From: a virus
DNA: 54,940 nucleotides
Strand: one strand, 5' to 3'
Virus record (IMG/VR): IMGVR_UViG_3300049846_002234
Coordinates: 1-54,940 of that record
Each line of letters starts with the position of its first letter. Position 1 is the stretch's first letter. Positions 6,571 to 39,700 of this stretch are shown piece by piece. Made by a program: the position numbers and the translations under genes. A model generated the notes under the pieces. The model did no database searches and had not been told where the DNA came from. It was given only the letters and a program-made list of their open reading frames with translations.

Positions 6571-6713
6571 TGCACCACAAGCGCCGCCGCCCGAAGTCTC
6601 GTCGTGCTGGCTGTTGTTGCGGTGGGAAGTGGGCCAAGCAGGAATGGGCACCCAAGTACTACCGGGTGAAGGGGCTCCGTGGCCCGCGCAAGAAGCGGGA
6701 TCTGGAGGACTGA
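6570..6713 (+). CDS. 47-residue basic Cys-rich protein between the terminase halves
   Basis: ATG overlaps the terminase ATPase stop and its own TGA overlaps the ATG of the nuclease gene. The product is very basic (KRRRPKSRRAG at the N-terminus) with a C-C-C-G-G cluster at 15-19 and RGPRKKRD near the end. Small Arg/Lys-rich proteins with an R-A-G-C motif are common near phage packaging genes, so it may be a DNA-binding helper rather than debris. Perfect stop-start overlaps on both sides argue that it is translated. Confidence 0.65.
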   Translation: MHHKRRRPKSRRAGCCCGGKWAKQEWAPKYYRVKGLRGPRKKRDLED

Positions 6714-7699
6714 TGCCCCCCGCCGCTCGCGGGCTCCCCCCGCTCCCACGCAAGCTGGCCCGTCTCACCGATGACCTGGCGATCATTCCCCAGGGCTACG
6801 GCTTCCTGCCGCTCGCCCTGCGGGATCTCCTCCCTGGCGGTCCCCACGCCGACGGGCTAGGGCTCTGCGCGATCTACGAGCCCCCGCTCCGGGGGTTCAA
6901 GTACGTCGTCGCGGCCGACATCAGCGACGGGCTGGGCAAGGATCGCACCTCCATCGACGTGATCCGGCAGGGGACGGTGGCGCGGACGGAAGAGCAGGTC
7001 GCCCACTTCATCTCGGATCGGGTGAAGCCGCGCGAGGCGGCCTTCATCGTGGATGCCCTCGGACACCTCTACTGCGACGATGAGGGCCGGGAAGCCTGTG
7101 TCGCCATCGAGACCAACAACCACGGGCTCAGCACCCAGGACACCTTGCGCCTCCACCTCGGGTACCGGCACTTCTACGTGATGGAGCATGTGGGCGCGGC
7201 CGCGCACGCCAACCGCTTCAGCGCCCGGGAAGGGTGGTACACCACCCAGCGCACGCGCCCGATCGTGCTCGACCACCTCTACGAAGCGCTCACCACCTAC
7301 GACCCGGTGACCGGCGAGCCGGATCTCCTCATCAACTCCCCGCACACCTTGGGGGAGCTGCACGACTTCCAGACCGACGGAGCGCTGGCGGATGCGGCTG
7401 CCGCCGCTGGCGCGCATGACGACTGCCTGATGTCGCTCGCCATCGGGCACTACGTGAGCTGGCGGCTGGCCGGCGGAGAGCGGGAGCCCCTGGCCGATCG
7501 GCGCCGGCGCCTGCGTATGATCGAGCAGCGCCGCGCCTCCCTCTCTGCCTACGACGGGAGCGGCGCCAGCTACCAGACCATGCCGTACACCGAAGAGGAG
7601 ATCGCCCAGGTGCAGGGGGGCCGGGTGGATCGCCTCGACCCTGAGCTGGAAGAGCTCCTGTACGATCTCCGGGGAGAGACCTACGATGGCTTCTACTAA
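6713..7699 (+). CDS. terL: Terminase large subunit, nuclease domain (split gene, part 2)
   Basis: 328 residues. It matches the RNase H-fold nuclease of large terminases: VVAADISDGLGKDRT with Asp69, AIETNNHG with Glu133, and HDDCLMSLAIG with Asp236/Asp237 form the expected acidic metal-binding set in the right order. In standard large terminases this domain follows the ATPase in one chain. Here it is a free gene in a different frame, separated by 142 bases from the ATPase gene. ATG at 6713 overlaps the previous TGA. The C-terminus (RRRRLRMIEQRRASL and an acidic tail) may contact the portal or the ATPase chain. Confidence 0.88.
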   Translation: MPPAARGLPPLPRKLARLTDDLAIIPQGYGFLPLALRDLLPGGPHADGLGLCAIYEPPLRGFKYVVAADISDGLGKDRTSIDVIRQGTVARTEEQVAHFISDRVKPREAAFIVDALGHLYCDDEGREACVAIETNNHGLSTQDTLRLHLGYRHFYVMEHVGAAAHANRFSAREGWYTTQRTRPIVLDHLYEALTTYDPVTGEPDLLINSPHTLGELHDFQTDGALADAAAAAGAHDDCLMSLAIGHYVSWRLAGGEREPLADRRRRLRMIEQRRASLSAYDGSGASYQTMPYTEEEIAQVQGGRVDRLDPELEELLYDLRGETYDGFY

Positions 7700-7958
7700 A
7701 GGCGCACTCAGATCTCGTGTGTTCGAGGGCTGGGCGCCCCGGATGGGGGTGATGTGCCTGGCCCAGCTCGACACCGGGCCACGGCCGTTCCTGCCGATCG
7801 CCCAGGCCGGCCCCGACGGGACGTGGGTGGGGTGGCTCTTCCCGCTCATCCCCACCGACGATGCCTCGCAGGATCTCCGTATCGCCGGCCACAGCCCCGC
7901 CGCTCGCCGCGCCCCGTGCTACTGTAAGGTCGCGCTCGCCGCCTTGCGGCAGCTCTGA
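7686..7958 (+). CDS. Hypothetical protein
   Basis: A 90-residue protein overlapping the end of the terminase nuclease gene by 14 bases, with GGGGAGA upstream of its ATG. It is beta-rich and Trp/Gly-containing (DGTWVGWLFPL) with a C-terminal Cys pair (CYC). No family recognised. The position between terminase and portal is usual for small packaging or head genes. Confidence 0.6.
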   Translation: MASTKGALRSRVFEGWAPRMGVMCLAQLDTGPRPFLPIAQAGPDGTWVGWLFPLIPTDDASQDLRIAGHSPAARRAPCYCKVALAALRQL

Positions 7959-7971
7959 GGAGTCGCACCCT

Positions 7972-8430
7972 ATGAAGATCAGCCTTTCCGACGACCTGAT
8001 GGACGCCTTGGCGGCGCAGCTCCGTCCTGGGCAGGACATCACCGCCCTGGTGGAAGCGCGCCTCGCCCAGCTCCTGACGATCCCCCTCGGCCACCCCTTC
8101 CTCGTGCTCAGTCACAGTGACCTGGACGCGATCGGGATGGCAGCGGGCCGCACCATGCCCCCGCTCTCTGCCGCGCAGATCATCGCCTACATCGAACGGC
8201 TCGGCCGGGTCCGTCTCGGCGACGTGAAGATCGAGTTCTCCGTCGGCCACCTCGAGGAAATCGCCCGTCTCGCCGCCCGCGAAGGGCAGGATCCCGCGCA
8301 GTACATCGGCCGGGTGGCCGCCACGATCCTCTCGCAGTTCTTCCGCAGCCCGGCCATGGCAGGGGAAATTCCCTCAGTGCGTACGGTGGAGTACCTGGAG
8401 GGAGCGCCTGACGCGCCCGTTACGGCATGA
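7972..8430 (+). CDS. Hypothetical protein with a ribbon-helix-helix-like N-terminus
   Basis: 152 residues; ATG at 7972 follows GAGGAG. The N-terminus (MKISLSDDLMDALAAQL) has the short-strand-then-helices look of a ribbon-helix-helix DNA-binding protein, but the spacing was not verified. The rest is helical (HLEEIARLAAREGQDPAQYI). It may be a packaging or regulatory protein; a small terminase subunit is one option, since none was otherwise identified. The stop overlaps the next ATG (ATGA). Confidence 0.6.
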   Translation: MKISLSDDLMDALAAQLRPGQDITALVEARLAQLLTIPLGHPFLVLSHSDLDAIGMAAGRTMPPLSAAQIIAYIERLGRVRLGDVKIEFSVGHLEEIARLAAREGQDPAQYIGRVAATILSQFFRSPAMAGEIPSVRTVEYLEGAPDAPVTA

Positions 8431-8933
8431 GCCACAACGCGGTCCTCTACCAGATCTTCCAGTGCCAGACCTGCGGCACGGCGCGGCGGCGCCCCCACCA
8501 GATCGGGGATGCGCCCGAGTGTTGCAACGCCCCCATGAAGTGGCGCCGCACTGCGACGATGATCGACCCTCCAGCGCCCCGCTTCGGACAGGCGCCCAGC
8601 ATCGACTTCCGCAACACCAGCCCGATCGAAGTGCCCATCGGGGCCAACGGGATCCGTTTCGAGTCGCTCCATGAGCTCCGGCAGTTCGAGAAGGAGAGCG
8701 AGGCGCTGGCGGCTGAGGGGATCGGGCAGCCCTACGTCATCCGGGGCTACTCCCAGAACAAGAGCAACATGAACGTCAACACCCTGGGCACGGTTGAGGA
8801 AGCCCCTCCACCCTCCTTCACCGACGCGAAGGGACGGCCACGCTTCAAGGTGACCCAGGGCACGGTCGATGAGACGATGGGCCCAGGCGCGTCCGAGGAT
8901 CTCGCCTCGGCGCTGCCCATGGATCCGATCTAG
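8427..8933 (+). CDS. Zinc-ribbon hypothetical protein
   Basis: 168 residues. The N-terminus has CQTCGTA followed 15-20 residues later by ECCNAPMKW, a zinc-ribbon arrangement. A middle part (GIRFESLHELRQFEKESEALAAE) is helical, and the C-terminus is low-complexity with Pro, Thr and Gly. It is placed directly before the portal gene and coupled to the gene upstream by ATGA. Proteins of this plan are common in phage head modules; function unknown. Confidence 0.65.
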   Translation: MSHNAVLYQIFQCQTCGTARRRPHQIGDAPECCNAPMKWRRTATMIDPPAPRFGQAPSIDFRNTSPIEVPIGANGIRFESLHELRQFEKESEALAAEGIGQPYVIRGYSQNKSNMNVNTLGTVEEAPPPSFTDAKGRPRFKVTQGTVDETMGPGASEDLASALPMDPI

Positions 8934-8945
8934 GCGGAGCGGCGC

Positions 8946-11072
8946 ATGCCTTCGTACTCTCCTGCAGGGTTCCACGACTTCCCGGTGATGTCGGATGACG
9001 CGCTCAACGGGCGGGATCCGCGCTACAACTCCCGTCTGATGGGGTGGTTGGACGAGGCGATCGCCGAGGGCGACGGCTTCATTCAGCAGGATCCGAACTA
9101 CAACCGCATGGCCGAGGGGATGGCGTACGTCTCCGGCGACCACAAGCTAGGGTTGCAGGGGATCGCGCCGGGCACGCTCGGCGACATCGAGAAGTTCTCA
9201 CTCAATCTCTGCCGGCGGGCGGCACAAGCCCACGTCTCAGCGCTCACCGATCTCAAGCCGACCTTCGGGTGGCGCTCGCTGAACCCCAAGTACGCGCCCA
9301 CCGCCGATCTCCTCAACAAGCTGACGATCGCGTGGTACCTGAACAACATGGCGGATGTCGCCTTCGCCGACGTGATGAAGATCGCCTGGGCGTGTGGCAC
9401 GGCCGACATGATGATCGAGTGGGATCACCAGAAGCAGGATCACCTGGTGATCGCCAAGGATCCCCGGGACACCCTGCCGATCCGGCCCTCGCGCTACGGT
9501 GGGGTCCAAGCCTGGCAGGGGGTGATCTTCCGCGAGGTGCATTCGGTGAACGTGCTGCGGGACATGTACCCGCACCACGCAGGGTACATCGTCCCCACGG
9601 CTGACGGGCTGCTCGCCTCGATCAAGGGGCTCTTCCAGCGCATCGCACCCCCCATGCAGTCTCCCGGTGGGGACACCCTCTCAGGGCTCTCGGGCATGCC
9701 GCGTGGCGCCGGCCCGGTGCGTTCGGGGGATGTCCTCTACTACCGCTGCTATCTCACCGATCGCAGCCGCAACCTCAAGAGCACCCCGGTGGTCGTGGGC
9801 GACCCGACCAAGCCGTGGGCGTACACGGTAGAGCCGGGCGATCTCCTGTACCCCAACAAGCGTCTCATCATCCGCACCGACCGCGCGGTGCTCTACGACG
9901 GCGGGGCGCCGTACCTCCACGGGCTCTACCCATTCGTGCGCTTCATGCCCTGGCGCCTGCCCTGGTTCTTCTTCGGGCAGTCGGCACTCGCCGATCTCAT
10001 CCCGGTGAACGATGCGATCAACCGTCTCGGGCGTGGGGTGCTCCTGGGGCTCGAGCAGTGGCTCAACCGTTCGACCGTGATCGACACCAACGCCGTCGGG
10101 GAAACGGCGGCCCGGGTGTACAACGCACGCCGGCCGGGACAGAACATCAAGCTGCGCGGGCAGGTGATCGATGTCGAGAAGGCGTTCCGGCCGATCGACG
10201 GGCCACAACCACAGGTGCTGGCGCTGGCAGGCACGACCCTCACCGAGCTCACCGCCCGGTTTGAGTCACTCGCTGGCACCGGCAACCTCGAAGCCCTGCA
10301 GCAGCTTAAGCAGCTCCCCGCCGAGGGCACGATCGAGAAGTTCTACCAGGCGATGACGCCTGAGCTGCGTCTGGAAGGGCGCATGTTTGAAGCGTTCCTC
10401 CGCGACGCCAGCCAGCAGATCCTGCACAACAGCCTGCAATTCCAGACCTCCGCCAAGCGCATCCACATGCTGGGGGATGCCGGGGCGACCCTGGAGGACT
10501 TCGATCTCGAGCCTGGCACGCTCCTTCCGGCGATGTCGGCGACGGTCACCGACCCGATGACGGGGATGCCGGCGCCCAACCCCGACTACGACCCCGCCTT
10601 CGACAGCACCATCCCCCGGGACGTGCGCGCGAAGGCAATGGCGAAGCTGATGGCGTTCGTCGTGGCGCCCAACTCGGTCCTGGCCTTCAACGCCCAGGAA
10701 GAGAAGATGATGGACTTCCAGCTCGCCCGCATGGGGTACCTGGACATCTGGACGCTCATGGAACGGCTGGAACGGCCCAACATGGGGGCGCCGCCGCCGA
10801 TCCCGCTGCCGCCGCTCAAGCCGCCGACGACGCCAGAGGAGCTGCAGGAAGGGCTGATGTCCGGGCGCTTCGTCCCCAACCCGACCCAGCCGGGGACGGT
10901 GCTCGAGATGCGGTCGCCGCTCACCATCACCGAACGGCTGATGGCCCAGCAGATGCTGGGGATCGGCATGACGCAGAACCCGGCCGGCCGCAAGGCGACG
11001 GGCGGGGATTCGCCCAAGGTCGAGGAGAAGGACGGCGGGAGCCGGACCACCGTCACAGAAAGCGAGAAGTAG
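8946..11072 (+). CDS. Portal protein
   Basis: 708 residues, the size of podovirus-type portals. It has the portal pattern: N-terminal helical domain, central ADLIPVNDAINRLGRGVLLG and LEALQQLKQLP segments that fit the stem/clip and long helix, and a Pro-rich then acidic C-terminus. The order terminase, portal, scaffold, capsid supports the call. It would form the dodecameric ring through which DNA is packaged and ejected. GGCGGAGCGGC lies just before ATG 8946. Confidence 0.85.
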   Translation: MPSYSPAGFHDFPVMSDDALNGRDPRYNSRLMGWLDEAIAEGDGFIQQDPNYNRMAEGMAYVSGDHKLGLQGIAPGTLGDIEKFSLNLCRRAAQAHVSALTDLKPTFGWRSLNPKYAPTADLLNKLTIAWYLNNMADVAFADVMKIAWACGTADMMIEWDHQKQDHLVIAKDPRDTLPIRPSRYGGVQAWQGVIFREVHSVNVLRDMYPHHAGYIVPTADGLLASIKGLFQRIAPPMQSPGGDTLSGLSGMPRGAGPVRSGDVLYYRCYLTDRSRNLKSTPVVVGDPTKPWAYTVEPGDLLYPNKRLIIRTDRAVLYDGGAPYLHGLYPFVRFMPWRLPWFFFGQSALADLIPVNDAINRLGRGVLLGLEQWLNRSTVIDTNAVGETAARVYNARRPGQNIKLRGQVIDVEKAFRPIDGPQPQVLALAGTTLTELTARFESLAGTGNLEALQQLKQLPAEGTIEKFYQAMTPELRLEGRMFEAFLRDASQQILHNSLQFQTSAKRIHMLGDAGATLEDFDLEPGTLLPAMSATVTDPMTGMPAPNPDYDPAFDSTIPRDVRAKAMAKLMAFVVAPNSVLAFNAQEEKMMDFQLARMGYLDIWTLMERLERPNMGAPPPIPLPPLKPPTTPEELQEGLMSGRFVPNPTQPGTVLEMRSPLTITERLMAQQMLGIGMTQNPAGRKATGGDSPKVEEKDGGSRTTVTESEK

Positions 11073-17789: not shown

Positions 17790-17878
17790 AGCGGCCGGCA
17801 GCCGCCGGCGGCGCGTCTCCCCTACCTGCCGCCGGTCGGCAGCCCGTGCGACGTGTGTACACCCACGGAGGAGAGATC
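17790..17878. other. 89-bp gap with GC-rich palindromes
   Basis: CTGCCG (17826-17831) pairs with CGGCAG (17837-17842) over a 5-base loop, and a GCCGCCGGCGGC palindrome lies just upstream. No T tract follows, so this may be a weak terminator or an RNA structure before the signal-peptide gene. GGAGGAGAG at the end is its ribosome binding site. Confidence 0.4.
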
Positions 17879-19546
17879 ATGCGGAAGTCCCTGGTGCTGC
17901 TGACCCTGTTGAGCTGTCTGTGCCTGCCGGAAGGGGCGGTAGCGCAGACGCCCAATCTGCCTCGGATCACCGATGCGCCGGTGTATCTCGGCTCGTTCGC
18001 GGTGCCGTTGGTGGATCGGCAGAGTGTCGCGCTCGACTACGGAGGGTACGCGCTCGGCATGGGGGCGGATGGCACCTCGCTCTACATCGGCTGCCACGAC
18101 TACACCGATCAGCTCGCCCGGGTGAGCATCCCGGCGATCGGCGGCGTAGCGACGATTCTCGAGGACTGCACCACGATCCCCAACGTGCAGGAGATCGTCC
18201 CGGGAACCAACAAAGCCGTCCTCGCCAACGGGCTGCAGCTCGGGGGCACGCTCATCTGGAACAACCGGGTCATCGTCACGGCCTTCACCAACTACGACAA
18301 CGCGGCAGACGGCCCAGGAGGGATGCAGCTCTCCCACTTCGGCGGGTCCACCATCGCCACACTCGCCGGGCCTCGCAAGGTGTCGGACTCGGTGAACACG
18401 CCCGTCGGCATGACGGGCGGCTACATGGGGATCGTCCCGCCCGAGTGGCGGACGGCTGTGGGTGGCCCGGCGCTCACTGGCCTGTGCTGCATCAGCATCC
18501 TCTCCCGTACCAGCTATGGGCCGAGTGCTCATGCCTTCGATCCCGATCTGGTGGTAGCGGGTTCTGGTCTGGTGCCGTCGGTGGCGCTGGTCGGCTACCC
18601 CGATGCCCACCAGACCCTCGGCGCCTACGACGCAGACAATCCGTACTACAACAGCGCCTGGAGTGTCGGTGGTGTGGCCTGGCCGAACAACACCAAGTCG
18701 GTGTACTTCGTCGCCAACGCCCCCAAGGGACCGTACTGCTACGGCGTCGGCGACCCCGTGCAGGCCAACCACAACGTGGTCATCAATGGTGAGCTGCACT
18801 GTTACGACCCCCTCAACAGCAACAAGGGACCACACGGGTACCCGTACGGGCCTGTGCTCCTCGAGTATGACGCGACCGATTTTGCAGCGGCCAAGGCGGG
18901 AACCAAGCAGTACTGGCAAGTCGTGCCTGTCGCCAAGATCGATCTTCCAGGAGGGGTGACGGCGGCACGTATCACCAGCGCCACCTTCAACCCGACCACG
19001 GGGGAGATCTGGGCGACGTTCTTCTACAACAACCTGCCGAGAGTGCATGGCTGGCGTGTTGGAAGCGTGGTGGCCCCGCCGCCGCCCGTGTCCCCCACAG
19101 GAACGCTCACCGCGACGCCTTCCACCGTATCTGCCGGCCAGTCCTTCAGCCTGACCTGGACAACGGCCAACGCAACGACGGCGGCGATCGACAAAGGGGT
19201 AGGAGCGTTGACGCCCGTCGCGGGAGGGTCGAAGACGCTGGTGAGCCCGAACGCGACGACCACCTACACACTCACGGCGACAGGCGCGGGTGGGACGGCG
19301 GTCGTCAGAACGACCGTGGAGGTGACGGGGGCATCCGCGAGTACGTGCGTCTCCGACCCCCTCTCGGTTTCCGTCACAGCCTGGCCGGGTATCGGCGAGG
19401 GGAGTCGTACCGGGAGCTTCACCTGGAGTGTCGCTGGGGCGACGGTGACGTGGAAAGAGTACCGCTTCGTTGTGGCGAACGGACGAGCTAACAGCTTCGT
19501 ATTGACAGACTCTCGTGGGTGTACCACGACGGTGTTCAGACCGTAA
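17879..19546 (+). CDS. Secreted-type protein: Sec signal peptide, beta-propeller-like region, Ig-like domain
   Basis: 555 residues from ATG 17879, preceded by GGAGGAGAG. Residues 1-22 are a textbook signal peptide (MRK, hydrophobic LVLLTLLSCLCL, then AVA|Q). About residues 30-395 are beta-rich with repeated Gly-Asn-Asp turns, suggestive of a propeller or sheet-repeat fold. Residues about 405-485 are an Ig-like domain (TATPSTVSAGQSFSLTW). A short Cys-containing C-terminal domain follows. The Ig-like domain is closely similar to two in the fibre at 32084. A signal peptide on such a protein is unusual for a phage: it would be exported unless the peptide is kept as a virion anchor. Function unknown. 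Confidence 0.7.
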   Translation: MRKSLVLLTLLSCLCLPEGAVAQTPNLPRITDAPVYLGSFAVPLVDRQSVALDYGGYALGMGADGTSLYIGCHDYTDQLARVSIPAIGGVATILEDCTTIPNVQEIVPGTNKAVLANGLQLGGTLIWNNRVIVTAFTNYDNAADGPGGMQLSHFGGSTIATLAGPRKVSDSVNTPVGMTGGYMGIVPPEWRTAVGGPALTGLCCISILSRTSYGPSAHAFDPDLVVAGSGLVPSVALVGYPDAHQTLGAYDADNPYYNSAWSVGGVAWPNNTKSVYFVANAPKGPYCYGVGDPVQANHNVVINGELHCYDPLNSNKGPHGYPYGPVLLEYDATDFAAAKAGTKQYWQVVPVAKIDLPGGVTAARITSATFNPTTGEIWATFFYNNLPRVHGWRVGSVVAPPPPVSPTGTLTATPSTVSAGQSFSLTWTTANATTAAIDKGVGALTPVAGGSKTLVSPNATTTYTLTATGAGGTAVVRTTVEVTGASASTCVSDPLSVSVTAWPGIGEGSRTGSFTWSVAGATVTWKEYRFVVANGRANSFVLTDSRGCTTTVFRP

Positions 19547-19559
19547 GAGGAACCCTCCG

Positions 19560-22229
19560 ATGCGGAAACTGGTCCTTGTACTCGCTATTCTCGCGCTGGC
19601 CACCTCGGTATCGGCGCAGCCGATCACCACGGCGGCGAACGCGGCGTTCGGCGTCGTGTCGACCACCTACGACGCGAGCGCCACCAGCATCGTGCTCTCG
19701 TCGGGACATGGCGCGCGGTTCGGCTCGACGTTCCCCGTCCGGGCGGTCTGGTACAACGCGACCGACTACCCGGGCGGGGTGGACTCGACGGGCACGGTCG
19801 ACCCGAACATCGAGTGGATCGAGATCACGGCGCGGGCGACCGATACGCTGACCGTGACGCGCGCCATCGAAGGACCGGCGGCGTCGACCAAGAACACGGG
19901 CGGCAAGACCTACTGGATCGTCGCCGTGCCCGTGACGGCCGCGAGCTGGAACGCCGTGCTCGCCTCGCTCGGGGCCAGCCCGCAGGCGCTGAAAACCACC
20001 TCGTCGCCCACGTTCGGCGGCTTGACCGTCGACACCGACACGTTCTGCGTCGACGCGACCAACAACCGACTCGGCATTGGGACGTGCGCGCCAGACTTCG
20101 CGGTCCACGCAATCGCCAACGCCACTAACATTTGGGCCTTCGACACCTACAGCAGCAATTCGGCGTTCCGCTTCCGCAGCGGCAACGGCACCAGTTCAGC
20201 TATCACCCGCAAGGCGAGCAGCGAAGGGCTCGGCGCGTTGCAGTGGTGGGGCGCGGCGAAGGATGACGGGCTGTCAGGTGCCACGTTCATCACCGGCAAC
20301 GCCACGCTACGCGTGATGACCCGTGAAGCATTCACGACGACCGGGCGCGGCACGCAATTCGAGTTCCAGCCGACCGCCGTCGGCAGCACCTCCGTCGCGA
20401 CGGCCGCGACGCTCAGCAGCGATGCGCTCGGATTGGCAGCGGGTGTCGACCTGACGCTCGCGGCCGGAAGCGAAGTGCAGCACGCCTCCGAGTACGTGTC
20501 GCGCGGCACCACAGGCTTTACCCTCTATCCGGGCGGAACCAGCACGAATAACACGGACCATCAGATCCGTTGGAGCGGTGCGAACAACGCCGGCGGCGGC
20601 ACGACCAGTAACCAGATTATTCAACTGTTCCGTAATCGCATCGATGGGAGCACGAACTACTTCAACCCCGTGATCCGGTGGGCACCTACAGATGGCACCA
20701 ACAATGGCGCCGACGTAGGGGAGTTTGGCGTCGAGGGAAACTGGACGAACGCCGGCGGCTACACGCTGCGCCGGATCTACCTCTGGGACTTCGTGAGAAA
20801 CAGCGGTGCGGGCGGCACGATCTGGCGCTGGGAAGACAGCCAGCCGGGGCAGTTCAACATCGGCGGCGATGACCTGGACATGAACCTGCACGTCGACCAG
20901 GGGCACTACATCGCCAAGAGCTATTCCAACACGGCGGGCACGGGCACGAGCGTCGACCTGTATCGCTTCCGCAACGCGATTGCGAGCGACCCCGATCGGG
21001 CGCGAAGCGGCGACGTGCTCGGGCGCGTGCGTGCGTTCGGCGGCGAGGGCGCGACCGACACCGCCACCGCGACGACGCCGACCGCCGCTTCGGCCGAACT
21101 GCGGTTCGACGCGGCGGCGAGCCACACCACATCGGACCATGCCGCGCAGACGGTGATCGCCACGGCGGGCAGCGGCTCGACGACCCTGACCGACCGCTTC
21201 AAGGTCGATTACACAGGGACGCAGATTTTGGAGTCGCTCTCGCTGAGCGGCGACAACCAGCCCGCGCAAATCGCGGCCAACACGAACGACTACGCCATCA
21301 GCAGCACGGCGGCGGTCACGGTGGTCGACGCCGACCAAATCCGCACGATCACCGGCATGACGGGCGGCATCGACGGGCGCCAGCACACGATCATCAACGA
21401 CGGCGCGTCCGACTCGGTGATCATCCTGCGCCACGACGACACGGGCAGCACGGCGGCGAACCGCTTCACGATGCCGAACGACGTGGTGCTCGAGCCCGGC
21501 CAGCCCGCGACGTTCTGGTACAACTCCACGGCCTCGCGCTGGCAACTGCTCGCCACGCCCTCGAACAACCGCACGGTCTACCTGCCGTTCGAGGACAACG
21601 ACCTGCTCAACACGGCCAGCGCCGACACGAAGGAGGCGACGGAGACGTGGAACTACGCCGTGATCTCCTCGGGCACGCAGGCGAAGGTCGCGGCGGACGG
21701 GACGCACCGGGGCATCCTCCGCACGCTGAGCAGCACCACGACCAACAGCGGCGGCGTCATGAACACGGCGGTCGACTCGTTCCGCCTCGCGGGCGGCGAG
21801 TACACCGAGTTCGTGTTCAACGTCGACACCACGACGAACACGACGATCCGCATGGGCTTCCTCGACACGGCCACCTCGGCGGATGCGACCGATGGGGCGT
21901 ACATCGAGATTCCCGCGAGCACGGCCCCGACCTGCAAGACGGCGAACAACAGCACCCGCACGACCAGCGCGACCATCGCCACGATTGCGACGGCGACGTG
22001 GTATCGGGCGCGCATCGAGGTCGACAACACGGCAGCGAACGTGACCTGCACGATCTTCGACGCCAACGGCAACAGCCTCGGCAGTCAGACCAACAGCGCC
22101 AACATCCCCACGGCGGCGGGGAGGGAGACCGGCCACGGCTACGTCGCCACCAACAGCGGCACGACCGCCGTGAACCTGATCCAGATGGACTACATGAGCG
22201 TCGGCACGCGCCGCGCCATCATCCGGTAG
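19560..22229 (+). CDS. Large tail-fibre-like protein with Sec signal peptide
   Basis: 889 residues. ATG 19560 follows AGAGGA. Residues 1-19 form a signal peptide (MRKLVLVLAILALATSVSA|Q). The rest is Ser/Thr/Asn/Gly-rich beta repeat sequence typical of fibres and of bacterial surface adhesins. The C-terminal quarter resembles a concanavalin-like or jelly-roll domain (RMGFLDTATSADATDGAYIE). Local base composition drops in about 20100-20700, hinting at a mosaic origin. It could be a receptor-binding fibre or an exported surface protein. Confidence 0.7.
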   Translation: MRKLVLVLAILALATSVSAQPITTAANAAFGVVSTTYDASATSIVLSSGHGARFGSTFPVRAVWYNATDYPGGVDSTGTVDPNIEWIEITARATDTLTVTRAIEGPAASTKNTGGKTYWIVAVPVTAASWNAVLASLGASPQALKTTSSPTFGGLTVDTDTFCVDATNNRLGIGTCAPDFAVHAIANATNIWAFDTYSSNSAFRFRSGNGTSSAITRKASSEGLGALQWWGAAKDDGLSGATFITGNATLRVMTREAFTTTGRGTQFEFQPTAVGSTSVATAATLSSDALGLAAGVDLTLAAGSEVQHASEYVSRGTTGFTLYPGGTSTNNTDHQIRWSGANNAGGGTTSNQIIQLFRNRIDGSTNYFNPVIRWAPTDGTNNGADVGEFGVEGNWTNAGGYTLRRIYLWDFVRNSGAGGTIWRWEDSQPGQFNIGGDDLDMNLHVDQGHYIAKSYSNTAGTGTSVDLYRFRNAIASDPDRARSGDVLGRVRAFGGEGATDTATATTPTAASAELRFDAAASHTTSDHAAQTVIATAGSGSTTLTDRFKVDYTGTQILESLSLSGDNQPAQIAANTNDYAISSTAAVTVVDADQIRTITGMTGGIDGRQHTIINDGASDSVIILRHDDTGSTAANRFTMPNDVVLEPGQPATFWYNSTASRWQLLATPSNNRTVYLPFEDNDLLNTASADTKEATETWNYAVISSGTQAKVAADGTHRGILRTLSSTTTNSGGVMNTAVDSFRLAGGEYTEFVFNVDTTTNTTIRMGFLDTATSADATDGAYIEIPASTAPTCKTANNSTRTTSATIATIATATWYRARIEVDNTAANVTCTIFDANGNSLGSQTNSANIPTAAGRETGHGYVATNSGTTAVNLIQMDYMSVGTRRAIIR

Positions 22230-22233
22230 CACG

Positions 22234-23337
22234 ATGACCTTCCCTGGCGGCCTCACTCCGGGCGGGCTTCCGTGGGGCGGCGTTGCGGCTGACGCCCCAC
22301 CGGCAGGTCCAGATCCGTTTGCGGGGGCTGTCTGGGCACTCCCCGTGGGGATGCCGTGGCGGCTGCCCCCGACCATCACCAATGCCGCCATCCTGGCAGA
22401 CGCCACCCTTCCAACGGCTGGGGTATCTGCGCTGCCCCCCGCGCGTGTCGCCGCTCCCCGTGTAGACTGGCTGGCCTCGCCTGGCCTGCCGATCCTCTCG
22501 CCGTTCCTCGAGGACGCGCCCGTGCGTCCTGGGGGGCAGCCTCGGCTCCCGAACAGCCCTGTGGCGGCTGGGGCGTTCCTCCTGGCCGGCAACGCCCTGC
22601 TGGCGTCCCCGGAGATGCCGGTGGCCCTGGCCAGCCAGCCTCCCATCCGCGCTGGGTATCAGCGGCGCGTCGATGTCGGGGGAGCCAGCCCCGTCCTCCT
22701 TGCCACGCCTACCTTCCCGGCGGGCGTGCAGACTACGCCGCTCCCCCAGCGCCTCCCCATCAACGGGCCTGTGGCGCTGGACTTCTGGTGGGGAACCAAC
22801 GCGCCTGCGGTTGAGCTCCCGGCAGGTCGGCAGGCGGTACTCATCCCCCAGCGGTTGTTCGTGCCGGATGCGACACGGGTTGGGACGATTCTCCCCATCT
22901 TCGGCGAACCGCCGCCGCCCGGCGCCGCACTCCTGGCGTTGGTGCGCCCTGTCGTGCTGGGGGTGCCGCCGTCGCGTGTTGACACCCTGCTGCTCCTCAC
23001 GACGGTGGCAGACATGCCCGTCGGGGGGCGTGGGGCCACACGCCCAGGACGGCTGCCAGACCGCCCGATGGCGACCGCACAGGCGTGGCTGCAGTACCTT
23101 CCCTCGCCAGCCACGACGATGCCTCCGGGGCAGACCTACGCCCCCCGACCGCCTGCCGCACGTTGGACGGCGCCGGTATCCCCGTACCTGGCGGCCTACG
23201 TACTCTCGGTGCCCCCCGCCCCCTTCGACGGGGCGCTCATGTGGCAATTCCAGGACGGGCCGACGGTGTACACTTTCGGCGGGCCAGACGGCACCACCTG
23301 GGTGTTCGCCGCCGACATCACGACGTGGGAGTGGTAA
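22234..23337 (+). CDS. Hypothetical Pro/Ala/Leu-rich repetitive protein
   Basis: 367 residues, starting 4 bases after the fibre stop without a clear ribosome binding site. About one residue in six is proline, and short motifs such as P-x-x-P with ALLA/LLA recur across the length. The C-terminus differs (MWQFQDGPTVYTFGGPDG) and may be a small folded domain. No TM or zinc motif. The proline spacing suggests an extended rod or a linker between fibre components. Unknown family. Confidence 0.55.
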   Translation: MTFPGGLTPGGLPWGGVAADAPPAGPDPFAGAVWALPVGMPWRLPPTITNAAILADATLPTAGVSALPPARVAAPRVDWLASPGLPILSPFLEDAPVRPGGQPRLPNSPVAAGAFLLAGNALLASPEMPVALASQPPIRAGYQRRVDVGGASPVLLATPTFPAGVQTTPLPQRLPINGPVALDFWWGTNAPAVELPAGRQAVLIPQRLFVPDATRVGTILPIFGEPPPPGAALLALVRPVVLGVPPSRVDTLLLLTTVADMPVGGRGATRPGRLPDRPMATAQAWLQYLPSPATTMPPGQTYAPRPPAARWTAPVSPYLAAYVLSVPPAPFDGALMWQFQDGPTVYTFGGPDGTTWVFAADITTWEW

Positions 23338-23340
23338 GCC

Positions 23341-23664
23341 ATGTTGGTCAACCAGAACGTCACGCCGAAGCAGCCCGGGGAGTCGCGGAAGTACGGCGGC
23401 GACTGGCGGCCGGCGCTCGCCCGCTTCCCAGGGGTCACCATCGTCGGGTCGGCGTGGAGTCTCGTTCCTGGGAGTGACGGAGCGCTCACCCTCGGGACTG
23501 CCGCCATCAATGGGGCAGGGGATCAGACCAGCGTGCTTCTCGGTGGGGGGACGGCAGGCGTCGTCTATACCCTGAAGAACAGCGTTACCTTGTCGGACGG
23601 CCAGATCCTGTACGGGTACGGCGTCCTCGAAGTCGCCTCAGAAGAGGCTATGTTGCGCGTCTGA
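23341..23664 (+). CDS. Small beta-rich structural protein
   Basis: 107 residues, 3 bases after the previous stop. The pattern GTAAINGAGDQTSVLLGGGTAG, then TLSDGQILYGY is one I recognise from small uncharacterised tailed-phage proteins found next to fibre genes. It may attach or modify the fibre. No catalytic motif. Confidence 0.6.
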   Translation: MLVNQNVTPKQPGESRKYGGDWRPALARFPGVTIVGSAWSLVPGSDGALTLGTAAINGAGDQTSVLLGGGTAGVVYTLKNSVTLSDGQILYGYGVLEVASEEAMLRV

Positions 23665-23680
23665 GCGCCCGGAGATCGTC

Positions 23681-24124
23681 ATGAGCCAGTTGGGTCGCCT
23701 CCACCGGATCGCCACCAACCCTGCCACGCAGTTCATCAGCGCCATCGCGCAGAACGCGGGGGAGTACCTCGGGCTCTCCGCCACGGAGCTCGGCATCACC
23801 GCCAAGGGGCGCGTGGCGCGGGTGGTCCTCCGCACCATCGAGAACAAGGATTGGGAGGTGTACTTCTACGCCACCTCGGCCAACAACACCGCCCTCCCCA
23901 GCACCAACAAGTACCTCGGCCGGTGCGCCTTCGTGGCCGCCGACGGCAAGCAGATCGCGGCGACCGGGCCGTACCTCTACGACAAGGCGTGTGACGTGCC
24001 GGTCGAGGATGCGGGGGGCGCGAGCAAGATCCACGTCGTGCTGGTGAATCGTGGGACGCTCACCACCGCCGGCGCCGATCGCATCGGCCTCGAGCTCCAC
24101 GTCGACCCCACGCACGGAGACTGA
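23681..24124 (+). CDS. Hypothetical structural protein
   Basis: 147 residues with a mixed alpha/beta pattern, no TM and no zinc site. The ATG follows GGAGATC. The C-terminal part (KIHVVLVNRGTLTTAGADRIG) is beta-rich. It is sandwiched between fibre-block genes, and its stop is followed after one base by the start of the next signal-peptide gene. Confidence 0.55.
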   Translation: MSQLGRLHRIATNPATQFISAIAQNAGEYLGLSATELGITAKGRVARVVLRTIENKDWEVYFYATSANNTALPSTNKYLGRCAFVAADGKQIAATGPYLYDKACDVPVEDAGGASKIHVVLVNRGTLTTAGADRIGLELHVDPTHGD

Positions 24125-24125
24125 T

Positions 24126-26405
24126 ATGCGTCGCTGGCTCTCCCTTCTCGTCCTCCTCGCCGTCGGGGCGCTCGCGTACCCGTCCGCGCAGACGCTCAGC
24201 TCGCAGGTACTGCAGCTCCTCATCCGCACCAACGTGTGGACGGGGAGACAGACCTTCAACGACCTGCGCCTGCCCGACGCCTCGCCAGCCGATACCAGCG
24301 CGCGGTTGTACCAGATCGGCGGCTCGCTGTACTGGAACGGTGGGGCGGTCGCTGGCGGCGGTGGCGGGCCGGCGCTGCACACCCTGCTGGGGTCGAGCCA
24401 CACCGACACCACCTCTGCCACCGTGGTGCGTGGTGCTCTCATCACCGGGCAGGGCGGAACCCCTACGTGGTCGATGCTTACCCTGGGCAGCGCGGGAACG
24501 ATGTTGCGGAGCGATGGCACCGATGTCGCCTGGGGCACCGACGCGAGCGCCCTCACGGCCCTCAACGCCACGCAGCTCACCTCCGGGACGGTCCCGCTCG
24601 CCCGCCTGAGCGGCATCACCAACACGGAGATCGCGGGCGGCGCGGCGATCGCCTGGACCAAGTTGGACAAGACGGGGAGCAGTCTGGCGGATCTGACGAC
24701 GCGATCGGCGACGGACCTGACGACGGGCACCCTCGCTGATGCCCGCCTGTCCGCCAATGTGAGCCTCTTCGGGGCGGCGGTCGACAACGCGGAGATCACG
24801 GCGGCGACGATCACCTTCGCCAAGTGGGCGAGCAACGCCTGCACGGCTGGGCAGTACCCGCAGTACGACGGCGCCAACTGGATCTGCAGCACGGTGACGC
24901 CGGGGTCGGGCACGGTCACGAGTGTCGGACTGACCATGCCGGCGATCTTCTCGGTGACGGGATCGCCGGTGACGGGAAGTGGGACGCTGGCGGCGACGCT
25001 GGCGAACCAGAGCGCCAACCTGGTGTGGGCGGGCCCGAGCACGGGGGCGGCGGCCGCGCCGACCTTCCGCAGCCTGGTGTACGCGGATCTCCCCACGAGC
25101 GCGGCGACGGCTGGGACGTACCCCAAGGTGACGATCAACGCCCAGGGGATCGTCACCGGCACCGCCAACCAGATCACCCTCACCACCGACGTGACGGGGG
25201 TGCTCCCCTTGGCGAACGGTGGGACGGGGCTGAACGCGGCGAGCGACGATTCCGTGCTGCTCAGCAACGGCACCACGTGGGCGGCGGTGGCGGTGAACAA
25301 CTGCACGGCCGGGCTCACCTACACGACGGCGACCAACACCTTCGGGTGCGTGGCCTCGGTGGCGAGCCATGCGCTGCTCTCAGGGAGTCACAGCGATACC
25401 CTGGCCGCGAGCGTGGTGCGAGGGGATCTGATCATCGGGAGCAGCACGCCGCAGTGGGTGCGGCTGGCTGTGGGCGCCAACCCCAGCGTGCTCTACAGCA
25501 ACGGCAGCGACCCGGCGTGGAAGAAGTACGAGATCCTGCTCTCTGGCACGATCACACAGGCAGATGGCTCTGTAACTTCACAGCCGTCCGGATGGTACAA
25601 CGTCGATCCCAGCAACTTCTTTCTGCACTTCGGTACGGTGCAGAACATGTCCGCGTACATCGCCGGCACGACGGGGCGCTATACGACAGGCACGTCGATC
25701 CTTGGTGCCGCCTTGCACGTATCCGCGCAGGGTGGGCCGGCGACGGGAGATGAGTGGTACGGATCGGCCGTGTTGGCGAGCCCGCAGTTGCAGGCAGGCA
25801 CCTCAGGCACGCACTCGATCATCGCGGCGATGGCGACGAGCTTCCAGGTAGCGTCGTGGGGCTCCGGCACTGGCACAGTCACCAACACCGCTGGGTACTA
25901 CTACACCCAGGGTGCGATCACGCCGTCAGTCACAGGGAAGAAGTACTCCTTCTTCGCCGACGACGGCGTGGCGCGATTTGACGATGGGGTTGAGGAACGC
26001 GGCCGCACCACCCTCATGGGCGAGTGGGCTTCCCCCTCCTACTCAGCCGGGAGCTACACCGCCAACGGGGCGATGACGTGGACGGTCGACAGCGGCGATG
26101 TCTCCGCGTTCAACTACACGGAAATCGGCCTGACACAGACGATCAGCCTGATCTTGTCAACGACCACGGTTGGAGGTACCCCCAATACCGAGCTGCGGGT
26201 GGCCATCCCCAACAGCCGCACGGCGGCCCGTACGACCGTGGGGACGTGTGTCGGCCTCGACAACAGCGTGAACTTCCAGGGCTTCTGGCAGGCCACGGCA
26301 GGCAACGCCTACGTGTCGATCTACAACGACCCCTCCGCCGGTACCAACTGGACGGCGGCGACCAACACGACGCAGATCCGGTGCGACATCACGGTGTCCT
26401 TCTAG
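24126..26405 (+). CDS. Tail-fibre protein with phage fibre repeats and Sec signal peptide
   Basis: 759 residues from ATG 24126, preceded by GGAGACTG. Residues 1-21 look like a signal peptide (MRRWLSLLVLLAVGALAYPSA|Q). Residues about 250-420 have clear phage-fibre repeats, including GTVTSVGLTMPAIFSVTGSP, FRSLVYADLP and LPLANGGTGLN, typical of long tail fibres. The C-terminal part is a beta-rich tip. The fibre repeats make a virion role likely; the signal peptide is then the oddity. Two other genes in the block share the same arrangement. Confidence 0.8.
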   Translation: MRRWLSLLVLLAVGALAYPSAQTLSSQVLQLLIRTNVWTGRQTFNDLRLPDASPADTSARLYQIGGSLYWNGGAVAGGGGGPALHTLLGSSHTDTTSATVVRGALITGQGGTPTWSMLTLGSAGTMLRSDGTDVAWGTDASALTALNATQLTSGTVPLARLSGITNTEIAGGAAIAWTKLDKTGSSLADLTTRSATDLTTGTLADARLSANVSLFGAAVDNAEITAATITFAKWASNACTAGQYPQYDGANWICSTVTPGSGTVTSVGLTMPAIFSVTGSPVTGSGTLAATLANQSANLVWAGPSTGAAAAPTFRSLVYADLPTSAATAGTYPKVTINAQGIVTGTANQITLTTDVTGVLPLANGGTGLNAASDDSVLLSNGTTWAAVAVNNCTAGLTYTTATNTFGCVASVASHALLSGSHSDTLAASVVRGDLIIGSSTPQWVRLAVGANPSVLYSNGSDPAWKKYEILLSGTITQADGSVTSQPSGWYNVDPSNFFLHFGTVQNMSAYIAGTTGRYTTGTSILGAALHVSAQGGPATGDEWYGSAVLASPQLQAGTSGTHSIIAAMATSFQVASWGSGTGTVTNTAGYYYTQGAITPSVTGKKYSFFADDGVARFDDGVEERGRTTLMGEWASPSYSAGSYTANGAMTWTVDSGDVSAFNYTEIGLTQTISLILSTTTVGGTPNTELRVAIPNSRTAARTTVGTCVGLDNSVNFQGFWQATAGNAYVSIYNDPSAGTNWTAATNTTQIRCDITVSF

Positions 26406-26419: not shown

Positions 26420-26692
26420 ATGCGCACCCTGACCCCGCTCCGTCTGTCCGTCCTGATCCTCGTCGCGCTGGTGACCTTCCTCGCCTGCGGCGCCGCCGGC
26501 GCCTGGGCGTACCAGGAGTACACCGCCTACCGGCAGATGCAGACCCTCTTGCCGCAGATGATCAACGTCATCAACGCGCACGAACAGGTGCTGCAGAAGA
26601 TCACGGGGGCGCCAACGATTGCGCCTTCGACGGGTGGTGGAGCGTCGCCGGGCGGCGGACCCGGAGCGGGGGCTCCGCCCCCCGCCAAGTAG
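26420..26692 (+). CDS. Small membrane or lipoprotein-like protein (spanin candidate)
   Basis: 90 residues. Residues 7-30 are hydrophobic (LRLSVLILVALVTFLACG), then comes a short helix (QMQTLLPQMINVINAHEQVL) and a Gly/Pro/Ala-rich tail. The FLAC sequence is near a lipobox, so a lipoprotein is possible; a simple membrane anchor is equally likely. This plan fits a spanin subunit or a membrane anchor. Start as above, without Shine-Dalgarno. Confidence 0.55.
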   Translation: MRTLTPLRLSVLILVALVTFLACGAAGAWAYQEYTAYRQMQTLLPQMINVINAHEQVLQKITGAPTIAPSTGGGASPGGGPGAGAPPPAK

Positions 26693-26695
26693 GTC

Positions 26696-27412
26696 ATGGC
26701 CTACACCAGCGTCACGCTCGCCGAGCTCGACAAGCGGCTGGTCGAACGGCTGGATCAGCATCCGTACTACACGGTGCAGGATCGCTACGATGCGCTCCGC
26801 ATGGTGCTGAAGATCTGGCAGGCGGCGACGGGGGTGTGGCGTGGGGAAGTCACGGCCACCGCGATTGTGGGCGATCCGTACGTCCCTGTTCCTGGCCTGG
26901 TACAGGTCACGGGGGTACGGTGGGGCGGCGTGCCCCTCTCTCCCACCACCATCCACGAGCTCGACGCGACCCAGCCCAACTGGCGGCTCGAGGTGGCAGG
27001 GGCAGGCGGGCGCCCCGCTACTCCCAAGTACTGGGCTCCGATCGGGCTCACCGCCGTGGCGCTCTGGCCGACGCCGGCCGCGACGACCGCGATCACCTGT
27101 CAAGGACTGGTCCTGCCTCCCGCGCCGGCGCCCGGCGCGCAGCTCGTCACGATCGATGTCGCCGACTTCTGGGTCGATACCTTGGCGGATCTCGCCGCGT
27201 GGTGGGTGACCGGCAAGGCAATGCCGGCTGAGCAGGACAAGTTCCAGCCGCACTTCGCGGCGGCCTTGCAGATGCTGGCGCGTGTACGCGGCACCTCCGA
27301 AGCCTCCAGCCCGTTCCAGGCGCTCCTCGAAGCCCTGGTGGGGAAGACGGCGCGGCCGACCGGACGGGATCTCTCCGCCAGCTCGCCCAACCCGGCTGAG
27401 GGCGCATCGTGA
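26696..27412 (+). CDS. Head-tail adaptor-like protein
   Basis: 238 residues. The helical N-terminus (LAELDKRLVERLDQH), central beta part, and helical C-terminus (FQPHFAAALQMLARVRG) resemble podovirus adaptor or tail-tube-A-like proteins. It precedes a second adaptor-like gene, to which it is coupled by a GTGA overlap, and then the nozzle-like gene. This order fits the portal-distal part of a short tail. Confidence 0.55.
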   Translation: MAYTSVTLAELDKRLVERLDQHPYYTVQDRYDALRMVLKIWQAATGVWRGEVTATAIVGDPYVPVPGLVQVTGVRWGGVPLSPTTIHELDATQPNWRLEVAGAGGRPATPKYWAPIGLTAVALWPTPAATTAITCQGLVLPPAPAPGAQLVTIDVADFWVDTLADLAAWWVTGKAMPAEQDKFQPHFAAALQMLARVRGTSEASSPFQALLEALVGKTARPTGRDLSASSPNPAEGAS

Positions 27413-28029
27413 AGGACGACGCCCTCCTCTCCGTGATTCAGCGGTACGTCCAGGAGCCGGTGGTCGACGGCGGGCGTACCTGGGCGCTGGGGCTCTGGAC
27501 GCGGGAAGAGGTGGTCGCCTACCTCGCCGCAGCGGAAGAGGACTTCATCCAGCGTACCCAGGTGATCGTCGGGTGGCAGCTTCAGGACTACACAGCGGGG
27601 GCCGGAGCGACCACCCTGGATCCTGAAGTGATCGAGGTGCTCACGGTGTCGGTGACCCAGGCCGGGCGGGGGACACCCTGTCCACTGGTCAGCCGGCATG
27701 AGGCGGATCTCCTCTACCCGGGATGGCCCAACCTCTCTGGGCGCCCGCGTGCGGCGATCTACGGGGATGCGGGCACGGCGACCTTGACGCTGGTTCCCCC
27801 ACCTGACGCATCCGGGCAGGTCCACCTGCACGTGATCCCGGTCCCTGAGCCGCTCAGCGGCGACGGCGACCCCCTCACCGTCGGCGATCTCTGGGAGCCG
27901 TTCGTCGTCGCTGGGGCACTCGCGCGGATGTTCGCCAAGCCCGGACAGGCGTACAATCCCCAACGGCGGGATCAGGCCAACGCGATCTTCGAGTTCGGGG
28001 TAGCCCTGGCGCTGCAGCGGACGGCTTGA
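27409..28029 (+). CDS. Head-tail adaptor-like protein
   Basis: 206 residues, GTG start overlapping the previous TGA. LWTREEVVAYLAAAEEDFIQ and the long C-terminal helix region (ALARMFAKPGQAYNPQR) are typical of gp4-like adaptors. It stands directly before the nozzle-like gene. The pairing of two adaptors with a nozzle argues for a short, multi-ring tail. Confidence 0.6.
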   Translation: MKDDALLSVIQRYVQEPVVDGGRTWALGLWTREEVVAYLAAAEEDFIQRTQVIVGWQLQDYTAGAGATTLDPEVIEVLTVSVTQAGRGTPCPLVSRHEADLLYPGWPNLSGRPRAAIYGDAGTATLTLVPPPDASGQVHLHVIPVPEPLSGDGDPLTVGDLWEPFVVAGALARMFAKPGQAYNPQRRDQANAIFEFGVALALQRTA

Positions 28030-36747: not shown

Positions 36748-39700
36748 ATGCCGAAGGGCGCTCCACCTCCTGCCCCGCCTCCGCCGGATCAGCTCAAGGC
36801 GCTCGGGATCAACCAGCCGGCACCGCAGCCCAAGGCGACCTACGCCGATCTGGTGGAGGCGGTACGCCTGGCCTACCCTGGCCGGTACGACGACGAAGAT
36901 CCGACCGCCCTCGCCGAGAGCGTGCTGGAGGTGTACCCGCATCTGCGCGATGCGATCGACCCTGCCACGCGCGGTATGGAGCTCCTCCCCTCGCATGAAG
37001 GAGGGCCGCGCACCAGCCGCGATTTCGTCCGGGGGAAGGGTCCGAACGAGTGGCTGCCCAAGCCCCCCACGCCGACGCCGGTCGGGACGCCGGAAGAGCG
37101 GGCGGCCACACTGAACAACCGCACGCCGGCCCTCTTCTCCGGCGATACCCTCATCACCAGCGGCCTGCGCGTGGGCGGCAGCATGGCGGGCGGGCTGGCT
37201 GGCACGGCGATCGCCGCCGCGACACTCAATCCCTTGGCCGTCCCCGCTGGGCTCTTCGCCGGCGGGTCGGCGGGTGAGGCGGCCGCTCAGCTCTACGAGC
37301 GGGAAGCCGGCATCTCCGAAGAGATCTCCCCCTGGAACGTCATCGCGCAGGGCGCCCTCAACACGGTGCCGGTCGCACGGGGTGCCAAGGCCGGGGCGGC
37401 GGGCATGGCGCGGTTGGTCGGCGCCAACGCCGTCAGGGGCGGGGCGGTGCGGCGTGGCGCGGCTGCTGTCGTCAACGCCACCCGCAACACCCAGCTCCCC
37501 GCGCGGATGCTGAGCAACGCCTTTGAAGGAGCGGTGACCAGCGCCGGCGGCAACGCACTGGAGCTCGGCTTCGAACAGAACCGCCTCCCCACCCTCGAGG
37601 AATCGGCCGCCGCCTCCCTGGCCGGTGCCGGGTTCGGCGCGGCCTTCACCGGCGGTGGCGCCCTCTACGACAAGGCGAAGGTCGTGCGGGCCAAGCCGGT
37701 CCTCAAGGCCGCGCACGACGTGATGGACACCTTGGATCTCTCCCGGGGTGGCACCCCGCTGCCGTCAGAGGCGTGGCAGGCGGCCAGTGCCCCGGTGATC
37801 GAGGCGATCCAGAAGGCCAAGAAGCTCGACCCCGAGGGCGGGCAGGCGGCGTTCCAGCGCCTCCTCAGCATCCTCGACGGGCAGCATCAGGCCGGGCTCC
37901 AGACCAAGGCGGCAGCGTTCCTTCAGGGCTTCGCCGAGAAGGCCGAGGCCATGAGCGATGGGGCACGGCTGGATCTCGCCAAGCAGCTCCTCGATCGGGT
38001 GAAGGCTGACGGGCTGAACGCTGAGGGACTGGACGAGGTGATCCGTACCCTGGCGGGGATTGATACCAACGCCCGAATGTCCCAGGCGGCGGGTGGGATG
38101 AAGCTGCTGCCCCCGGCGCCCCCGGAGAACATCCTGGGCGCGGGCGGCAAGGACATCCTGCCGGTGGAGCCTCGGTACGCCGAAGGGCCGGGAGGCCCGC
38201 CGATCGAGGTGCTCCCCGAGGGCGAGGTGCTCGTGGGCGCCCGTACCGACCTGCAGGGGCCGCCGCCGCTCGTCGCCGACCAGCCGCAGGGTCCACGTCC
38301 GGTCGTCACCGGCCGACTGCGTGAAGCCGCCCCGCTCCCGCCTGAGCCTCCGCCGCCACCTGTCGACTGGCGGCAGGCGGAAGGCCCAGAGCAGGTAGCC
38401 GCCCGCATCGAGGGCCAGCGCTTCTCCCGGATCGCCCAGCAGGGCACCACGGCCGAGGTGGCGCGCGGGCTGGCGGGGGTGGATCGGGCGCGTCTTGCGG
38501 GGGCCGAGCAGCCGCTGCTGGGCGGGCTGCCCCCGGAGCCGGCGCTCAACTACAACTTCGACCCGCGCCCGCCGGAGGCGCCGGCGCCGCGCGCCATTCC
38601 TGGCGAGCAGACGGGGGTGGATGCCCTCTACCCGGTGCGTGCAGGCACGATCGATCGGGAAACCGCGATGTGGCTGCGGGTGGTGCTGGCCGATCTCAAG
38701 GAGTTCGGCTACCAGGAGCCGGGGAAGCACAGCAAGGGGGTCGCGGCGGATCGCGCGCAGGAGCGCTACGACGGAGGGTCGGCCTTCTCCAAGAACCAGG
38801 CAGCCGCCCGGGTCGGCGGCAGCAAGGTGGCCCGGACCATCGCCCTCATCGCAGGAGGCGACCCGGAGAAGCCGGGGGCGCCGGCGCTCAAGGAGCAGAT
38901 CGAGAAGTTCCTCAACGGGGAGCAGGTGACGCCCTCCCCGCGCGTGGCGGCGGCGATCAAGTACGCCGCGCTCCTCAAGCAGGCGTGGGACGGCAAGAAG
39001 CTCACCAGCGGGAACCTGTTGCCCAAGCACCTGCGGGGCGCCGGGCTCGTCAACGCGAAGCTGAACGACGTGTACCTCCCGACGCTCCCGCCCTCGGTCG
39101 CGCTGGGACTGGACGAGGCGGACGATCTCCTCGCGCAGTTCGCCCCCGAGGTGCTGGCGACCAAGCAGCGTATGCAGGCGGAGGTGGCGGCCGATGATGG
39201 GACGCCGGCGTACACGCCCCGGGCGGGCGAAGCGCCGGAAGGGGTGCGTCAGTTCCTCGCCGAGCTGAGCCACGACGACCTGAAGATGCTCCACGCCGAG
39301 CTCCTGCAGCAGGGGCCGGACGCCGCGCAGCACCGGGGGTGGGTGGCGGATGCGCTCGAGCAGCGCGGGATCGCCCGTCCCGAGCAGGGCATCCTCACGC
39401 CTGAGAGCCTGCCGATGCTCCCGCCGGAGCCGGGTCCGCGCCTGTTCGATCTGGAGGCGGCCGCTAGTGGTGAGGTTCCACGTGGAACCCCAGATGTTGT
39501 GGAGGGCGCGGGCGCACGTGCTGAGGTGCCTGCTGAGGAGCCCTACACCCCGCCGGTGAGCGACCTGCCGCCGGGGCATCCCGACGCGCCGCCCGACATC
39601 CCGCCTTTCGACATCCCGGAGGGGAAGCTCCGCGTGCGTCAGGCGAGCACAGGCGCCTGGGAAGTCACCGTCGATGGCGAGCTGGCAGCCACGGTGACGC

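Follow-up and report, generated by a model that had tools for sequence, protein, structure and literature searches.

Putative Sec signal peptides on tail-fibre-block proteins of a soil podophage-like virus, and a possible route of fibre attachment outside the cytoplasm

Tailed-phage virions are taken to be assembled entirely in the cytoplasm. Signal peptides have been described on phage proteins of lysis and exclusion, including the T4 antiholin RI, whose peptide is cleaved (PMC8385771), and Cor-type exclusion lipoproteins (PMC4936722), and in the open-access literature we found none described for tail fibres. Here, we describe three proteins with putative Sec signal peptides, encoded by genes starting at 17879, 19560 and 24126, in the tail-fibre block of IMG/VR virus record IMGVR_UViG_3300049846_002234 (54,940 bases; the window below is this whole stretch), a soil phage whose terminase, portal, major capsid protein and adaptor genes indicate a podophage-like genome. 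Like RI and the Cor-type proteins, the three would use host Sec and signal peptidase; the described proteins differ in being small regulatory or membrane proteins, not large fibres. Sec-type export of all three is, on sequence grounds, highly probable, and the whole proposal, in which the proteins are exported, folded with disulfide bonds and docked on virions at lysis, has in our estimate a probability of about 0.5. It suggests that exported fibres are added to the virus outside the cytoplasm, a route not known for tailed phages.

Described phages with which the window can be compared are Tunturi_1 and Tunturi_2, cultured Acidobacteriota podophages (Tunturiibacter phages; Tunturi 1-3 are podoviruses, PMC11924767), which are distant yet syntenic, with identities to the window of 21% for the portal, 27% for the protein encoded at 12058, 26% for the capsid protein and about 26% for the large protein encoded at 28050. 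In both, the same slot is occupied by signal-bearing proteins, a few of which have annotations as tail fibre, tail spike or virion structural protein; a text search of their description (PMC11924767) found no mention of signal peptides. Tunturi_1 has five such proteins (gp12, 13, 14, 16 and 17), located between the capsid and adaptor genes and conserved in Tunturi_2, and these fibre-block proteins differ from those of the window in that no homology was detectable between the five and the window's three. A nearer relative is a contig within an Acidobacteriota-phylum genome (portal 37% and capsid 48% identical to the window), and the host of the window phage is probably an acidobacterium.

Signal peptides of the three proteins

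According to the original prediction, each of the three genes starts with MRK or MRR, followed by a hydrophobic core and an Ala-Gln junction, and the coordinates, the starts and the Sec/signal peptidase I (SPI)-type N-termini are all borne out. With the putative cut written as a hyphen, the N-termini consist of MRKSLVLLTLLSCLCLPEGAVA followed by QTPN (17879; AVA-Q site), MRKLVLVLAILALATSVSA followed by QPIT (19560; VSA-Q site) and MRRWLSLLVLLAVGALAYPSA followed by QTLS (24126; PSA-Q site). They show the positive n-region, the uncharged hydrophobic core of 8-15 residues and the small residues at -3 and -1 that are typical of Sec/SPI substrates, the weakest point being the Pro at -3 of the 24126 A-Q site, for which ALA-YPS is an alternative. 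In a check for twin arginines, 24126 and its homologues were found to start with MRR or MMRR and the other two proteins with MRK; Sec is suggested over the twin-arginine (Tat) pathway because the hydrophobic cores are strong.

Signal-peptide prediction was done with a home-made scorer of the n-, h- and c-regions, calibrated against 12 signal peptides known from E. coli (range 5.8-10.6). The proteins 17879, 19560 and 24126 score 8.97, 11.1 and 10.2, values that shuffles of their own N-termini reach in 0-0.17% of cases; forced to the A-Q site, they score 8.97, 10.5 and 6.5 (OmpA 9.7, DsbA 9.4, PhoA 5.8), all within the range of genuine signals. Among the other genes of the window, only 26420, which encodes an N-terminal membrane segment, scores equally high. 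Gln directly follows the chosen cut in 11 of the 12 signal-bearing proteins from the compared phages and in 4 of the 5 from Tunturi_1, counts that are biased by the cut having been set at A/G/S-Q wherever one was available (window, L208, L212, L214, L215, L217, L218; L003).

The starts themselves could be artefacts, with true starts downstream and the hydrophobic stretches untranslated. No evidence for this was found, each called start is preceded at normal spacing by a Shine-Dalgarno sequence (GGAGG at 17867-17871, GAGGA at 19547-19551 and GGAG at 24116-24119, respectively), and the homologues begin at the same place, so that we give this explanation almost no weight; given the relatives, chance or a wrong start is a very unlikely source of the signals. 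An uncleaved hydrophobic N-terminus might alternatively anchor the fibre in the virion or a membrane, as the original prediction had suggested with its virion membrane anchor. Although each protein has a hydrophobic helix at its extreme N-terminus, this idea is very improbable and we discard it: the cores are short, the sites are of signal-peptidase type, the conserved segment begins right after the site, and tailed virions have no membrane. Nor was a conserved lipobox for signal peptidase II found, the LLSC of 17879 being missing in its homologue and 19560 and 24126 having no Cys there.

Comparison with homologues indicates that the signals are under selection. Two homologues of 24126 (in the relatives L208 and L215; about 52% identity over some 400 residues) are both signal-bearing and retain A-Q, and within the hydrophobic core only 2-3 of 16 residues agree with the window protein (12-19%), whereas the mature N-terminus right after A-Q (VLQLLxRxNxWTGxQxFN) is identical at 16-18 of 24 positions (67-75%). 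A diverged core in front of a conserved mature N-terminus is the pattern expected of a cleaved signal, and the retention of charge, hydrophobicity and A-Q while the cores diverge points to selection. No signal-less version of the 24126 N-terminus was found among the loci compared, and 17879 has a 35%-identity homologue with an A-Q signal of its own. The same data bear on the idea that the genes come from bacterial exported proteins or hybrids and that the signal is bypassed, the fibres folding fast in the cytoplasm and assembling normally. Similar repeat modules are indeed present in exported proteins encoded on the chromosomes of Bdellovibrionales, Bacteroidota and Acidobacteriota, but the selection on the signals, together with the even Cys counts described below, which favour real export, makes a bypass improbable.

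A fibre domain behind the signal, and cysteines

The block and its boundary genes are arranged as follows, lengths being given in amino acids (aa) and signal peptides as predicted:

17879..19546, plus strand: 555-aa protein with 8 mature Cys; signal peptide 17879-17944, followed by a domain without family assignment; C-terminal region (residues 406-481) matching the virion-protein profile phrog_2155, virion structural protein (2e-10)
19560..22229, plus strand: 889-aa tail fibre with 4 mature Cys; behind the signal peptide (19560-19616), the mature protein opens with the N-terminal domain of podophage tail fibres; C-terminus an SO2946-like_C domain (Pfam PF22237, 1.5e-28)
22234..23337, plus strand: 367-aa block protein; signal peptide not convincing
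23341..23664, plus strand: 107-aa Gp77-like podophage fibre-tail adaptor (Pfam PF23148, 5e-17; weak match to 8jou_D), without signal peptide
23681..24124, plus strand: 147-aa protein of a family located immediately upstream of a signal-peptide protein in several relatives
24126..26405, plus strand: 759-aa tail-fibre protein; 6 mature Cys, GTVTSV repeats and a signal peptide at 24126-24188
26420..26692, plus strand: 90-aa protein with one N-terminal transmembrane segment, listed as partner of the signal-bearing fibre
26696..28029, plus strand: two SU10-type adaptor proteins bounding the block (Pfam PF24175, 4e-11 and 3e-15)

In the case of 19560, the sequence behind the signal can be assigned. 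Residues 27-107 share 43% identity with the beginning of a 440-aa protein in relative L153, whose N-terminus matches PHROG tail-fibre families and in which the domain begins at the ATG; a stop lies one codon upstream and closes the frame, so a signal is impossible there. Aligned with the N-terminus of the tail fibre of BcepMigl, the same region of 19560 shows 31% identity; the BcepMigl fibre matches the virion tail fibre of GP4 (PDB 8jov, 9e-38) and has a 93-aa neighbour matching the 8jou protein (5e-40). The BcepMigl and CSP3 fibres begin directly at the domain, without a signal peptide, unlike 19560. Judged from these alignments, the signal of 19560 is an add-on to a podophage fibre domain, and the GP4/Lessievirus (BcepMigl) fibres with their Gp77 adaptor (8jov, 8jou, PF23148) resemble both the 19560 domain type and the Gp77-family gene of the block. 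This GP4/Lessievirus-type N-terminal domain, which by analogy with the named families would attach the fibre to the tail, was found in 19560 only, and the adaptor gene at 23341.

Exported proteins tend to have even numbers of Cys because they form disulfides. Mature Cys counts are even in all 13 signal-bearing proteins of at least 250 aa from this lineage and Tunturi_1, compared with 37 of 71 signal-less proteins from the same blocks (p=0.0006, or p=0.005 with one protein taken per homology group). Two Cys pairs of 24126 (239/254 and 393/408) are either complete or wholly absent in its two homologues, and 17879 has a counterpart for each of the 4 Cys of its homologue. Even counts and pairing hold only in this lineage, in Tunturi_1 and in the fibre of a Bradyrhizobium phage described below; for the window proteins, they make disulfide formation outside the cytoplasm likely.

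Distribution among relatives and other fibres

Relatives were collected with a capsid alignment, which yielded 78 additional viral loci, portal and 28050 alignments being too narrow for distant viral relatives. A 28050 homologue is present in 25 of 25 long records tested. The genes of the relatives were called with a codon model, since longest-open-reading-frame calling erred at guanine-cytosine-rich loci. The comparison covered the whole block in 23 non-redundant phages including the window, a signal being a score of at least 6.5 in a protein of at least 110 aa. Signal-bearing block proteins were found in 7 of the 23 and were lacking in 16, so the trait is not universal in the family. Among the family's genes of at least 200 aa, a score of at least 8 was reached by none of the 217 located upstream and by 4 of the 227 located downstream, the predictor thus being quiet on other structural genes. 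The signals are not a property of the host either: Tunturi_3, which has the same host strain as Tunturi_1, has several fibre genes, none signal-bearing, so the trait follows the phage.

A small gene accompanies the signal-bearing ones. In the window (26420), L208, L215 and L217, a protein of 50-90 aa with one N-terminal membrane segment is encoded directly or one gene after a signal-bearing protein, and L214 also encodes a small membrane protein, not adjacent to its signal-bearing gene. Such a gene is present in 5 of the 7 signal-bearing phages and in 0 of the 16 others (descriptive p=0.0006; a membrane call in L161 was excluded as false, since the protein is homologous to a structural one), and a 23681-like gene often immediately precedes the signal-bearing gene. 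Retention of the signals in homologues, their recurrence in the slot on unrelated proteins and their linkage to a partner gene support the earlier view of a real system rather than an accident.

The fibre repeats claimed for 24126 were confirmed, and its repeat module, used as a query, matched 313 related stretches in viral contigs, from which 77 usable fibre genes, 51 of them non-redundant, were obtained. About 6 of the 51 are signal-bearing, and genes neighbouring signal-bearing survey fibres are enriched in signals (4/32 versus 6/262, p=0.015). In addition to these, the fibre L035:5341-7716 has an unusually long n-region ahead of its core (VARLTLAIGVLLLACLVTFSCIPAFA followed by QVPA), which recalls extended signal peptides. 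Isolated phages with related fibre modules are mostly signal-less (LE3, Cy-LDV1, Motura, ct76p945, phiLM21, P106B and RHph_N28_2 fibres). The tail-collar fibre of Bradyrhizobium phage ppBdUSDA122-1 has an N-terminal signal peptide and 18 mature Cys; its tape-measure gene marks a long-tailed phage, unlike the window, and no relation of the N-terminal domains was seen. In L120 (Virus Rctr41k), a gene located downstream of the tail genes (6996-8975) encodes a 659-aa protein with a possible lipoprotein signal at its start and 11 cysteines. Phage-fibre repeats with signal-peptide-like starts are also found at bacterial-genome loci of Bdellovibrionales, Bacteroidota, Acidobacteriota and others (L092, L093, L094, L095, L098, L103, L105 and L113); these exported proteins share repeats and signal with the window and differ in being chromosomal, several without phage structural genes nearby.

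Proposed route and its main rival

In the proposed model, the three genes would give rise to pre-proteins with cleavable Sec/SPI peptides, which the host would export to the periplasm or beyond and from which the peptide would be removed at A-Q, the mature proteins folding there with disulfide bonds. The signal-less tail adaptors would assemble with the capsid in the cytoplasm, and lysis would bring both together, so that the exported fibres could dock on the virion via their N-terminal domain; 26420 may retain them near the inner membrane until lysis. Sequence comparison supports the real starts, the selected signal properties, the virion-fibre domain after the cleavage site and the linkage to a partner gene; from these we infer cleavage, disulfides, lysis-time docking and the role of 26420, docking in particular because the block contains an N-terminal domain of fibre type and an adaptor gene. 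The original prediction had offered two options, export to coat the infected cell or the membrane anchor discarded above. The signal evidence upholds export; coating is conceivable and not favoured, given the same domain and adaptor gene, and attachment to virions outside the cytoplasm is a third option that it did not contain. More tentatively, and at less than even odds, some podophages and perhaps some long-tailed phages may share a separate route, making Sec-exported, disulfide-bonded periplasmic fibres that a small membrane partner retains and that are added to a signal-less virion only at lysis, in which case the progeny would acquire their full set of fibres outside the cytoplasm.

The main rival is that the proteins are exported and have no place in the virion, acting in the periplasm or at the cell surface, for example in blocking receptors against superinfection, in occupying or degrading surface sugars, or in freeing progeny from capsule or debris. 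The trait is patchy, the signal-bearing genes are associated with a small membrane protein, a situation also seen in some exclusion systems, and Tunturi_1 gp14 and its Tunturi_2 counterpart are annotated as tail spike and pectin lyase, all of which would fit such a role. On the other hand, 19560 has a virion-fibre N-terminal domain directly after its signal, the adaptor gene and the position among structural genes point to virion use, and exclusion by as many as five proteins per phage would be expensive; we regard a purely non-virion role as the less likely of the two.

Several points weigh against docking on virions, two of which also favour this rival: signal-bearing phages encode large signal-less block proteins as well, so the exported ones may not be working virion fibres, and 17879 has no recognisable attachment domain. 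No proteomic record of the proteins in virions was found for this phage or Tunturi_1, and AlphaFold2 models of 17879 and 24126, built on alignments of 2-3 sequences, had a mean predicted local distance difference test (pLDDT) score of 34-35, were unusable and were not used. Cys density is not higher in signal-bearing fibres (survey p=0.10; not significant in the family either), and the even-Cys rule fails among unrelated survey phages, with odd counts in L031, L056 and L089. The signal-peptide scores come from a home-made scorer, the co-occurrence groups were defined after inspection of the data, which makes their p-values descriptive, and bacterial exported repeat proteins could be the source of some of the genes by capture.

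If export, disulfide folding and docking at lysis are what occurs, views of fibre assembly, lysis timing and host range would change, and the possible failure of such fibres when expressed in the cytoplasm would be explained; if the proteins act outside the virion, they would represent an overlooked set of large phage-secreted fibre-like proteins. The cultured Tunturi_1 makes the question directly testable either way.

The large terminase of the window is split over two consecutive reading frames (5209-6570 and 6614-7699), the earlier frame corresponding to the first part of a normal terminase and the later one to the second, and the same split is found in relatives L009 and L010. By far the largest gene of the genome is an open reading frame of 2,379 aa at 36748-43887.

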